DNA from: an uncultured Pelagibacteraceae bacterium
GTDB lineage: Bacteria > Pseudomonadota > Alphaproteobacteria > Pelagibacterales > Pelagibacteraceae
NCBI GenBank assembly: GCA_902604305.1
Contig: CACKXS010000006.1
Span: 1-55,481, forward strand
Length of the DNA stretch: 55,481 nt
Direction of reading: 5' to 3'
The position numbers and the translations under genes are program-made. A model generated the notes under the pieces. The model searched no databases. It saw only the letters and a program-made list of their open reading frames with translations, and was not told the origin of the DNA. Numbering within the stretch: the stretch's first letter is position 1; each line of letters opens with the position of its first letter. This document shows positions 41,126-45,432 of the stretch, piece by piece.

Positions 41126-41202
41126 TGGTGGGCCGCGAAGGACTTGAACCCTCAACCTCAGAGTCCGTAGCTCTGCGCTCTATCCAATTGAGCTAGCAGC
41201 CC
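41126..41202 (-). tRNA. tRNA-Arg (ACG)
   Basis: On the minus strand the 77-base cloverleaf has acceptor stem GGGCTGC/GCGGCCC, a D arm with AATTGGATAG, anticodon stem CAGAG/CTCTG with loop CTACGGA (anticodon ACG), a T arm with GGGTTCAAGTCC, and an encoded CCA after discriminator A. ACG reads CGN codons after deamination to ICG, which requires TadA. Confidence 0.97.
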
Positions 41203-41466: not shown

Positions 41467-44400
41467 ATGGCTAATAAGGTAATAGTTCCTGATATTGGTG
41501 ATTTTGAGAATGTTGAAATAATAGAAGTTTTAATAAAATCTGGCGATAAAATAAAAAAAAATGATTCCATTGTAACTCTTGAAAGTGATAAATCTAGCGT
41601 TGAAGTACCATCAACAATAGAAGGTATTGTTGAAAATATCAATGTGAAAATCGGAGATAAAGTTTCAAAAGGTGATGTACTTATAGAAGTTTCGGGAGAA
41701 CAAATTGAAGTTAAAGAAGAAAAAGAAAAATCAAACCAAGATAAATTACCTGTAGATACAGAAAAAATTATCCAACAAGCGGAAAAGACTTTAGAAAAAG
41801 AAAAGAAAGTTGATACAAATAAAATTGATAAAAAGAATGAAACAATTACTCAAGTCTCAAAAGATGGAGATATAGATCCAGTTGAAACAAAAGAATGGTT
41901 AGAGTCTCTTTCCGCAGTTTTAGAAAAAGATGGAAAAAGTAGAGCTCAATTTTTAATTAAACAACTTATTGAACATTCTTATAAGGAAGGTTCAGATTTA
42001 ATATTATCTAAAAATACTCCTTATATTAATACTATAAAACCAGAGGAAGAGATAAAATCTCCTGGAGATCAAAATTTAGAAAGAAAAATAAGATCTCTGA
42101 TTAGATGGAATGCAGCGGCAATGGTTGTTAGAGCAAATAAAAAAAATCCAGAACTTGGAGGTCATATTGGAACATTTGCCTCAGCTGCTACTCTATATGA
42201 TATTGGCATGAATCATTTTTGGAGAGCAAAAAATAATAAATTTGGTGGAGATTTAATTTACTTTCAAGGCCATAGTGCACCCGGAATGTATGCAAGAGCT
42301 TTTCTTGAAGGCAGAATTAATGAAAAAGAATTAGACCGTTTTAGACAAGAAGTTAAACCAGGTGGGCTATCTTCCTATCCTCATCCTTGGTTAATGCCAA
42401 AATTTTGGCAATTTCCTACAGTGTCAATGGGTCTTGGTCCAATAATGTCAATCTATCAAGCTAGATTTAATAAATATTTAATCAATAGAGGATTGTTAAA
42501 AGATGAAGGAAGAAAAATTTGGTGCTTCTTGGGAGATGGTGAAACTGACGAACCAGAATCTTTAGGAGCCATAGGATTAGCAGCTAGAGAAAAACTGGAT
42601 AACTTAATTTTTGTAGTAAATTGTAACTTACAAAGACTCGATGGACCAGTAAGAGGTAATGGAAAAATTATTCAAGAACTTGAAGGAATATTTAGAGGAG
42701 CTGGTTGGAATGTAATTAAAGTTATTTGGGGTTCTTACTGGGATCAATTGTTAGCCAAAGATAAATCTGGATTGCTAATTAAAAGAATGGGAGAAGCAGT
42801 TGATGGAGAATATCAGGCATTCAAAGCAAAAGGAGGGAAATATGTAAGAGAGAAATTTTTTGGGAAGTATAAAGAACTTTTAGATATGGTTTCTCAAATG
42901 ACAGATAGAGATATTTGGAAACTTAACAGGGGTGGACATGATCCACACAAAGTTTATGCTGCTTATCATGCTGCTATGCAGAATAAAGGTACACCAACTG
43001 TAATTCTAGCTAAAACTATCAAAGGATATGGAATGGGTAAGTCAGGCGAAAGTATGAATACAACTCACCAACAAAAAAAATTAGATGAAGAAGATTTGTT
43101 ATATTATAGAGATAGATTTGATGTGCCTTTAACAGATGAGCAAGTAAGAAATATTCAATATTATAGACCTGATGATAATTCACCAGAAATAAAATACTTA
43201 AAAGAATGTAGAATTAAATTAGGTGGAAACTTACCAGAAAGATCATCATTTGCTAAAGCTATAAAAACTCCACCAAAAGATATATTTGCAAAAATGAAAG
43301 AATCTACAGGAGAAAAAGAAATGTCAACAACAATGGTATTAGTTAGAATGTTGACAAATCTTATGAGGGATAAAAATGTAGCTCCAAGACTAGTTCCAAT
43401 TATTCCAGATGAAGCTAGAACTTTTGGCATGGAGGGCTTGTTTCAAAAAATAGGAATATATGCTCACGAAGGTCAAAAATATGAACCAGTTGACTCAGAG
43501 CAATTAAGTTCTTATCGTGAGGATATAAAGGGTCAAGTTTTAGAAGAAGGAATAACAGAGGCTGGTGCTATTTCGTCCTGGATTGCAGCTGGCACATCCT
43601 ATGTAAATCATGATATCTCAATGATACCAATATATATATTTTATTCTATGTTTGGTTTTCAAAGAACCGGCGACTTTGTTTGGGCTGCAGGAGATAATCA
43701 AACAAGAGGATTTTTAATTGGAGCAACTGCAGGACGTACAACATTATCAGGAGAAGGTCTTCAACATGGTGATGGACATAGTCATATATTGTCTTCTGTA
43801 GTACCAAATTGTATTTCATACGATCCCACTTTTTCTTACGAGCTAGCTGTAATTTTTAGAGAAGGTTTAAGAAGAATGTATGAAAAGAGAGAAAATATTT
43901 TTTATTATATTACTACAATGAATGAAAATTATACTCATCCTGAAATACCAAAAGAAAAAAATATAGAGGAAGATATATTAAAAGGTATGTACAAATTTAA
44001 AGAATTTAATAAAAATAAAAAAACTAAAATACAATTATTAGGATCCGGGGCCATTCTAAGAGAAATTATTGCTGCTGCAGAAATATTAGAAAAAGATTTT
44101 AAAATAGATAGCGATGTATGGAGCGTAACAAGTTATAACGAACTTAGAAAAGAAGCCATAGAAGTTGAAAGATATAATTTACTTAATCCAGATAAAACAA
44201 ATAAAAAAAGCCATATAGAAAAGTGCCTTTCTTCAACTGAAGGGCCAATAGTTTCAGCTTCAGACTATATAAGGTTAAATTCAGATCAAATTAGGCCTTT
44301 CATTAGAAAAAGTTTTTACTCATTTGGCACAGATGGATATGGAAGAAGTGATACTAGAAAAAATTTAAGAAAGTTTTTTGAAGTTGATAAAGAACATATT

Positions 44401-44517
44401 GTAGCTTATTCGCTAAGTGTCTTAGCCAAAGAACAATTAATACCATCAAAATATGCAAATGAAGCTATAAAAAAATATAATATTGACCCAAATAAAACAA
44501 TCCCTACAAAACTTTAA
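41467..44517 (+). CDS. aceE: Pyruvate dehydrogenase E1 (AceE) with N-terminal lipoyl domain
   Basis: This is the homodimeric thiamine-diphosphate E1 that decarboxylates pyruvate. Residues 1-78 form a complete lipoyl domain with K42 in LESDKSSVEV as the lipoylation site. A Lys/Glu-rich linker runs to about residue 134. The remaining 880 residues align end to end with E. coli AceE (887 residues): DPVETKEWLESL, the TPP motif starting GDGETDEPES at 356, NRGGHDPHKVYAA, DEARTFGMEGLF and GEGLQHGDGHSHI. Family E1 proteins of this type normally have no lipoyl domain. The downstream E2 gene lacks one, so the lipoyl domain appears to have moved between subunits. Confidence 0.95.
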   Translation: MANKVIVPDIGDFENVEIIEVLIKSGDKIKKNDSIVTLESDKSSVEVPSTIEGIVENINVKIGDKVSKGDVLIEVSGEQIEVKEEKEKSNQDKLPVDTEKIIQQAEKTLEKEKKVDTNKIDKKNETITQVSKDGDIDPVETKEWLESLSAVLEKDGKSRAQFLIKQLIEHSYKEGSDLILSKNTPYINTIKPEEEIKSPGDQNLERKIRSLIRWNAAAMVVRANKKNPELGGHIGTFASAATLYDIGMNHFWRAKNNKFGGDLIYFQGHSAPGMYARAFLEGRINEKELDRFRQEVKPGGLSSYPHPWLMPKFWQFPTVSMGLGPIMSIYQARFNKYLINRGLLKDEGRKIWCFLGDGETDEPESLGAIGLAAREKLDNLIFVVNCNLQRLDGPVRGNGKIIQELEGIFRGAGWNVIKVIWGSYWDQLLAKDKSGLLIKRMGEAVDGEYQAFKAKGGKYVREKFFGKYKELLDMVSQMTDRDIWKLNRGGHDPHKVYAAYHAAMQNKGTPTVILAKTIKGYGMGKSGESMNTTHQQKKLDEEDLLYYRDRFDVPLTDEQVRNIQYYRPDDNSPEIKYLKECRIKLGGNLPERSSFAKAIKTPPKDIFAKMKESTGEKEMSTTMVLVRMLTNLMRDKNVAPRLVPIIPDEARTFGMEGLFQKIGIYAHEGQKYEPVDSEQLSSYREDIKGQVLEEGITEAGAISSWIAAGTSYVNHDISMIPIYIFYSMFGFQRTGDFVWAAGDNQTRGFLIGATAGRTTLSGEGLQHGDGHSHILSSVVPNCISYDPTFSYELAVIFREGLRRMYEKRENIFYYITTMNENYTHPEIPKEKNIEEDILKGMYKFKEFNKNKKTKIQLLGSGAILREIIAAAEILEKDFKIDSDVWSVTSYNELRKEAIEVERYNLLNPDKTNKKSHIEKCLSSTEGPIVSASDYIRLNSDQIRPFIRKSFYSFGTDGYGRSDTRKNLRKFFEVDKEHIVAYSLSVLAKEQLIPSKYANEAIKKYNIDPNKTIPTKL

Positions 44518-44520
44518 ATT

Positions 44521-45432
44521 ATGTTAGAAAATAAAAAAATATTTGCCACACCAAAAGTAAGAAAATTTGCTAGAGAACTTGGAGCAAATATAGCTGAGAT
44601 TGAAGGATCGGAAAGATTAGGAAGAATAACTGAAGAGGATGTAAAAAATTTTGTAAATAAAAATTTAAATAAATCACAAACAAAAGAAGATATTAAATTT
44701 AAGTCCGAATTTAATCACTCCGACTTTGGAGATATTGAGATAGCTGAAATGCCTAGAGTGAAAAGATTGGCTGCCCCTCATCTTTCAAATTCTTGGAATA
44801 CAATCCCACATGTTACTCATCATGATGAAGCAGATATAACTGAACTAGAAGATTTCAGATCAAAATTAACAGACCCAGTTTCTGGAGATAAAATGAAAAT
44901 TACTCCTCTTGCTTTTATAGCAAAAGCATTAACTAATAATTTAAAGAAATTTCCTACGTTCAATTCTTCTATTGATAATATTAGTGAAGGAAAGATTACT
45001 TTAAAAAAATATTTTCATATCGGCATTGCTGTTGATACAGCTCATGGTTTAATGGTTCCAAAAATAAGAAATGTAGATCAAAAGAAAATAAAAGAAATTG
45101 CTGAAGAATTAAAAAATGTAAGTGAACTTAGTAGAAATTTAAAGATAAATAAAAAGGAATTTTTTGGAGGATCAATAACTATAACAAGTCTTGGAGGAAT
45201 CGGTGGTACTTATTTTACACCTATAATAAATTATCCTGAAGTTGCAATTCTTGGCGTTGGTAGATCCTATAAAAAGCAAATTTTTATAAAGGATAAGTTT
45301 CTTGTAAGAACAGTGTTGCCAATATCACTTTCATATGACCATAGAATTATAGACGGGGCAGAAGCGGCTAAGTTTTGTAATTCATTGAAAGAAAATTTAG
45401 GAAAAAATTTTGCCTATAATTTAGCTTTTTAA
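44521..45432 (+). CDS. aceF: Dihydrolipoamide acetyltransferase E2 without a lipoyl domain
   Basis: This E2 has 303 residues, where E2 proteins normally have 400-630. It begins directly with the peripheral-subunit-binding domain (ATPKVRKFARELGANIAEIE, LGRITEEDV, residues 8-45), a linker follows, and then the catalytic core from about residue 75 (EIAEMPRVKRLAAPHLSNSW). The catalytic motif SYDHRIIDGAEA gives H274 and D278. No lipoyl-lysine domain is present; it is found on the adjacent E1, three bases upstream. The E2 core should accept acetyl groups from lipoyl arms carried by E1. No E3 (lpd) gene lies in this window. Confidence 0.93.
   Translation: MLENKKIFATPKVRKFARELGANIAEIEGSERLGRITEEDVKNFVNKNLNKSQTKEDIKFKSEFNHSDFGDIEIAEMPRVKRLAAPHLSNSWNTIPHVTHHDEADITELEDFRSKLTDPVSGDKMKITPLAFIAKALTNNLKKFPTFNSSIDNISEGKITLKKYFHIGIAVDTAHGLMVPKIRNVDQKKIKEIAEELKNVSELSRNLKINKKEFFGGSITITSLGGIGGTYFTPIINYPEVAILGVGRSYKKQIFIKDKFLVRTVLPISLSYDHRIIDGAEAAKFCNSLKENLGKNFAYNLAF

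Follow-up and report, generated by a model that had tools for sequence, protein, structure and literature searches.

The window analysed here, a 55,481-nucleotide stretch of contig CACKXS010000006.1 (GenBank assembly GCA_902604305.1) from an uncultured SAR11 bacterium of the family Pelagibacteraceae, contains the adjacent genes aceE and aceF, which encode a homodimeric-type E1 and the E2 of a pyruvate dehydrogenase (PDH) complex. The two frames are both open and are separated by 3 bases. What sets the pair apart is the placement of its lipoyl domain (LD), which is fused to the N terminus of AceE and is missing from AceF. The relevant features, in window coordinates, are as follows.

41467-44517, forward strand: aceE, an LD-linker-E1 fusion of 1016 residues with a homodimeric-type pyruvate dehydrogenase E1 (open reading frame, Pfam, NCBIfam, PDB alignment)
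41476-41691, forward strand: LD of AceE, residues 4-75 (PF00364, PDB matches, AlphaFold 2 (AF2) model)
41590-41592, forward strand: K42 of AceE, the presumed lipoyl-lysine, in the motif ESDKSS
41692-41865, forward strand: charged, presumably flexible linker of AceE, residues 76-133 (predicted local distance difference test score (pLDDT), ratio of nonsynonymous to synonymous substitution rates (dN/dS))
41866-44508, forward strand: E1 core of AceE, residues 134-1014 (TIGR00759, PDB alignment)
41866-41991, forward strand: presumed E2-docking segment of AceE, residues 134-175 (match to the E1 chain of PDB 9h1n)
44521-45432, forward strand: aceF, an E2 dihydrolipoyl acetyltransferase of 303 residues without an LD
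44539-44646, forward strand: peripheral subunit-binding domain (E3_binding) of E2, residues 7-42 (Pfam)
44737-45399, forward strand: acetyltransferase catalytic domain of E2, residues 73-293, with the motif SYDHRIIDG (H274)

Pfam places Biotin_lipoyl (PF00364) on residues 4-74 of AceE at 60.2 bits, against a cut-off of 22.1, followed by Transketolase_N, PDH_E1_M and Transketolase_C_1, and residues 133-1014 satisfy the NCBIfam aceE model TIGR00759 (1415.6 bits; cut-off 859.9). The N-terminal portion, residues 4-126, aligns with the N terminus of the AceF model TIGR01348, and the LD scores 84.9 bits with the AceF model as opposed to 40.9 with the SucB model. Its best PDB matches are the LDs of Escherichia coli AceF (7b9k), followed by an LD from N. 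meningitidis (1gjx). Downstream, residues 134-1013 align over 880 residues with E. coli E1p (1l8a), placing H534 opposite H407, and a 49-residue E1 chain in PDB entry 9h1n corresponds to residues 134-175; chain A of that entry is a piece of E2 that matches the subunit-binding domain. AF2 models the LD with beta strands only (block pLDDT 68-85), with K42 positioned between strands 34-39 and 44-48, and residues 81-130 of the linker have block pLDDT values of 26-44.

In AceF, Pfam detects E3_binding at residues 7-42 and 2-oxoacid_dh at 73-293, and the same search finds no Biotin_lipoyl within the 303 residues. The protein matches TIGR01348 only from profile position 281 onward and, at 331.2 bits, falls below the whole-protein cut-off of this long-type AceF model (552.1), although it does possess the subunit-binding domain and the catalytic domain with a DHRxxDG motif that are expected of AceF. 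Both active sites look intact, because H534 of AceE aligns with H407 and H274 of E2 lies in DHRIIDG. A sequence-only reading of this locus had described a complete LD (with its lysine at residue 42) and a linker ahead of a full-length E1, an adjacent E2 that begins at its subunit-binding domain, and hence a pair whose sole lipoyl arm is on E1; domain searches of both proteins bear out this description, together with the AceF-type character that had been ascribed to the E1-borne LD.

The same division of domains is found elsewhere in the family. The sample comprised 121 loci, of which 107 non-duplicate loci with both genes intact were retained (101 from the SAR11 family and 6 from outgroups) after removal of six exact duplicates, of seven loci with an incomplete E1 or E2, among them the LD-free paralogs L032 and L044, and of L031, which is cut at a contig end; the resulting counts are of loci and not of independent species, since the genome sets may overlap in species. 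A named genome collection yielded 80 of the SAR11 loci, from records titled Pelagibacteraceae or Pelagibacterales. The split first proposed for the window, with an LD on E1 only, is present at 28 of the 101 family loci, and a further 71 carry one LD each on E1 and E2. Two LDs on E1 accompanied by one on E2 occur at the other two loci (L036 and L037, in genomes G158 and G435), which belong to a sister genus and have their E1 LDs in tandem. In all six outgroup alphaproteobacterial loci the LDs reside on E2 only, and the same holds for seven intact loci of another class (an eighth locus is cut before E2). The nine nearest relatives of the window (AceE 93-98% identical; for example AG-343-C02, AG-426-I13 and AG-439-B12) share the LD-bearing E1 and the armless E2, and one E1-only locus sits on a 966 kb contig (AG-426-E17, L054). 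Across the 28 E1-only loci, 7-35 residues lie between the preceding stop and the subunit-binding motif of E2, and there is therefore no room for an LD on E2.

Broader genome surveys bear on the same distribution. Among 397 family genomes, AceE was matched in 339, with all matches listed starting at query residue 1-5 and hence including the LD, and a matching E2 was found in 333, for which the 150 matches listed divide into 30 with short frames (330 residues or fewer) and 120 with long ones (415 or more). A class survey found AceE in 11 of 385 genomes; the five that belong to the SAR11 family have the LD, and the six others lack it. At the level of the phylum, AceE was present in 161 of 398 genomes, and among the matches listed only two SAR11-family genomes start before residue 106; similarly, in the class of genome G767 (AceE in 126 of 185 genomes) none of the matches listed starts before residue 117. 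The AceE core was unmatched in all 24 genomes sampled from the other SAR11 family (f2, G037-G060), which is at odds with the occurrence of aceEF in several SAR11 subclades as given in the accessible text of PMC10030771. A search of 88 plasmid records produced one that covers 80% of the fusion query; the record annotates aceF there and no aceE, and on that annotation, at the nucleotide level, the match is taken for part of an aceE next to an aceF and not for a fusion. The E1 linker has a median length of 72 residues in the 28 E1-only loci and 61 in 26 one-on-each loci, uncorrected for relatedness; two one-on-each loci, L071 and L083, likewise have 73-residue linkers, and no inference is drawn from linker length.

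Some genomes of the sample contain an LD-less AceE-like E1 that is 52-53% identical to the window's E1 (L032 in G010, L044 in G158, and copies in G027, G018, G013 and G011). At L032, on the reverse strand, this E1 is 884 residues long, scores nearly alike with TIGR00759 and TIGR03186, and is followed by a protein of the histone-deacetylase family (PF00850). In the window itself, a tRNA gene occupies positions 41129-41202 of the reverse strand, in the intergenic region 5′ of aceE.

In the window's genome (41 contigs, 72% complete), two LDs exceed the cut-off, on SucB and on AceE, and the inventory includes two E2s (SucB and the 303-residue AceF), one E3 and a LipA gene. The sequence-only reading had raised the prospect of a separate armed PDH E2; neither a second armed pyruvate-type E2 (E2p) nor an armed E3 was found in this 72%-complete genome or in any of the 19 E1-only genomes that are at least 90% complete. 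Given the completeness of the window's genome, the absence of another arm rests mainly on these near-complete relatives, in which the LDs over the cut-off belong to AceE, to SucB-sized frames and to frames of 119-145 residues that are read as biotin carriers. SucB-like LD frames, of 436-454 residues, are present in 18 of the 19, with none seen in G1093. Two weak partial LD matches in 447-residue frames (G1041, G925) proved to be HlyD-type secretion proteins. Two E2s are present in nine of 11 genomes and one in the other two (G016 and G034, in which SucB was not found), and proteins with Pyr_redox_dim (E3) number one each in G000, G004 and G012 and two in G158, with no LD match in any of these E3 frames. 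LipA was found in five of six genomes, including the window's own.

In a complete congener genome, a reverse-strand frame (L136; G012:C1:1030800-1032600) contains a lipoyl domain scoring 43 bits. Judged by eye, the LD is followed by a subunit-binding domain and a hexapeptide-repeat acyltransferase, and the frame overlaps an E1-beta-like frame; the locus could encode an additional 2-oxoacid dehydrogenase whose E2 is unusual.

The E1-borne LD evolves under purifying selection. Among ten close sequences (45 pairs), dN/dS is 0.064 for the LD, 0.395 for the linker and 0.038 for the E1 core. The motif ESDKSS is kept in 103 of 103 E1 LDs, as it is in 73 of 73 SAR11-family E2 LDs. In addition, the E1 residues that align with the E. 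coli active-site loop are invariant in 22 aligned rows, and the docking segment and catalytic motifs of E1 are retained.

On the strength of these sequence comparisons, aceE and aceF very probably encode parts of a PDH complex in which the homodimeric E1 bears the sole lipoyl arm, for use by an E2 core that has none and by an E3 whose gene lies elsewhere. The predicted role of AceE is both to decarboxylate pyruvate and to acetylate lipoamide. In the complex described in the accessible text of PMC8421416, E1 binds the subunit-binding domain of E2, and LDs move back and forth between E1, E2 and E3. By docking its N-terminal segment in this manner, each E1 dimer would bring two arms to the core, and since the LD and linker precede this conserved segment, the arm of a docked E1 would sit near the place that an LD of E2 usually occupies. 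K42, once lipoylated, would be reductively acetylated in an E1 active site belonging to its own chain, the partner chain or a neighbouring dimer; the acetylated arm would then swing on its linker to the acetyltransferase sites in the core of E2, and would finally be re-oxidised by E3 (Lpd, encoded beside sucB). Lipoylation, docking, the cis or trans route of loading, and catalysis are steps that we infer.

The history of the arm can be approached through the LDs themselves. In a 74-column tree, the SAR11-family LDs, from E1 and E2 alike, form one clade relative to other AceF LDs (support 99/96), which places the E1 LD with the AceF LDs of its own lineage. With other E2 LDs as outgroup, the E1 LDs from the window's genus are united in one clade (96/91), and because the E2 LDs of one-on-each loci fall outside it, and do not nest within it, loss of the E2 LD is favoured over its regain; with SucB as outgroup, the outgroup branch is extreme and the genus clade is not recovered. 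Gain of the E1 LD probably preceded loss of the E2 LD, since 71 loci have one LD on each protein and two have two plus one. We infer that aceE acquired a copy of an AceF LD at its 5′ end in an ancestor of this SAR11 family or of the genus, and that the E2 LD would then have been lost one to three times. Such an E1 would arise if aceEF were duplicated in tandem and the DNA between an aceF LD and the following aceE were then deleted. Of the origins suggested in the sequence-only reading, transfer of an AceF LD to aceE is probable, but a deletion at the aceE-aceF junction cannot have made the E1 LD, because the LD is encoded at the 5′ terminus of aceE, the side remote from aceF. It seems likely that the swinging arm has been wholly handed from the E2 core to a homodimeric E1 that can load its own arm in cis, with arm number following E1 occupancy, and that the relatives preserve a series from E2 only (in the outgroups) through two plus one and one plus one to one plus none, possibly with repeated losses from E2.

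Several points weigh against this account. At the 71 one-on-each loci, the E1 LD is no replacement for that of E2. On the tree of the E1 and E2 cores, the E2 LD undergoes at least three changes of state, but a single clade of armless E2s is not rejected (approximately unbiased test, p 0.25), and three changes would fit either loss on all three occasions or a single loss with two regains. A single clade of all E1 LDs is likewise neither rejected nor shown (p 0.336 and 0.368). The AF2 model of whole AceE has a mean pLDDT of 42.8, with fair confidence in the LD alone, probably as a consequence of a shallow alignment. Moreover, at 72% completeness the assembly of the window's genome could lack a second E2 that bears an arm, and the LD of SucB could in principle serve the armless AceF.

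In its fuller form, this last proposal has AceF mixing with SucB in a hybrid complex that uses the SucB LD and leaves the E1 LD as an accessory. SucB with its LD and one Lpd adjoin each other in the same genome, and sharing of an arm is stated for C. glutamicum, where OdhA uses that of AceF (PMC7568260, accessible text). Nevertheless, the E1 LD fits the model of AceF and not that of SucB, it is strongly constrained, and all 28 E1-only loci retain it together with its lysine, so that we regard a hybrid as unlikely. E1p enzymes are also generally selective for their own LDs, which counts against it as well. Alternatively, the E1 LD might be a regulatory or structural addition and not a catalytic arm, as would be conceivable at the 71 family loci whose E2 has its own LD and where the E1 LD need not be an arm; however, the 28 loci that lack an E2 LD keep the E1 LD, and the invariance of ESDKSS in every E1 LD makes this explanation very unlikely.

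A complex that is inactive or decaying in the E1-only lineages is scarcely credible, even though frame breaks in two relatives might be taken as signs of it. In L030 (G032), stops split aceE into several frames, and at G1107:C7:67570-67782 the AceE LD occupies its own 116-residue frame with a break between LD and E1, the product of a real split or of a sequencing error. Set against these cases are the low dN/dS of the E1 core, the invariant active-site-loop residues, and the open frames of the 28 E1-only loci, although the loci were selected for open frames. An assembly or sequencing artefact at 41467-41870, against which the sequence-only reading had cautioned, or a deletion confined to one assembly, might be suspected in a genome of 41 contigs that is 72% complete, but it is refuted by the recurrence of the same architecture at 27 other loci, one of them on the 966 kb contig, and in the 19 near-complete genomes; since the pair recurs in independent SAR11 genomes, assembly error is not its source.

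Comparison with known systems helps to place the arrangement. The E. coli PDH complex (AceE homodimer, AceF and Lpd) resembles it in the E1 core, the AceF-type LD, the subunit-binding and catalytic domains of E2, and the E1 N-terminal segment, but differs in having three LDs per E2 chain (PMC8421416, accessible text); the pair described here has a single LD, on E1, and none on E2. In Zymomonas mobilis, an LD is likewise found on an E1 chain, E1-beta (PMC7873978, accessible text). That E1 is a two-chain alpha2beta2 enzyme, whereas the E1 described here has the one-chain AceE architecture and is not of the E1-beta type. The E2 of the Z. mobilis type reportedly keeps its LD. A location off E2 is also known from the Mycoplasma hyopneumoniae PDH, with the LD on E3 (PdhD), in which K42 is lipoylated according to liquid chromatography-tandem mass spectrometry, and from P64K-type proteins of Neisseria and Alcaligenes, with an AceF-like LD on E3 as the partner enzyme (PMC7873978, accessible text). 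In both cases the arm is on E3, whereas here it is on E1 and the E3-LD type was not encountered in the genomes covered. In Corynebacterium, OdhA is an E1o (2-oxoglutarate-type E1) protein with an E2 domain that uses the LDs of another protein, AceF (PMC7568260, accessible text). OdhA is thus an E1-E2 fusion that borrows an arm, in contrast to an E1 that bears one. It is said to have no LD of its own. The literature searched, which mostly excludes subscription papers, contained no description of an LD on a one-chain AceE combined with an armless E2, and LDs on AceE go unmentioned in the accessible text of PMC10030771, PMC7542561 and PMC10308909. Accordingly, LDs located off E2 are already known, on E3 and on E1-beta, and the combination of an LD on one-chain AceE with an armless E2 is new within the literature searched.

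The E2-borne swinging arm is a textbook trait of 2-oxoacid dehydrogenase complexes, and in this ocean lineage the arm is found on E1. Lipoylated AceE is predicted to be present in SAR11 proteomes. The living intermediates among its relatives would make it possible to ask what active-site coupling needs, in terms of the number of arms per core, the point at which they are anchored, and the ability of E1 to load its own arm.

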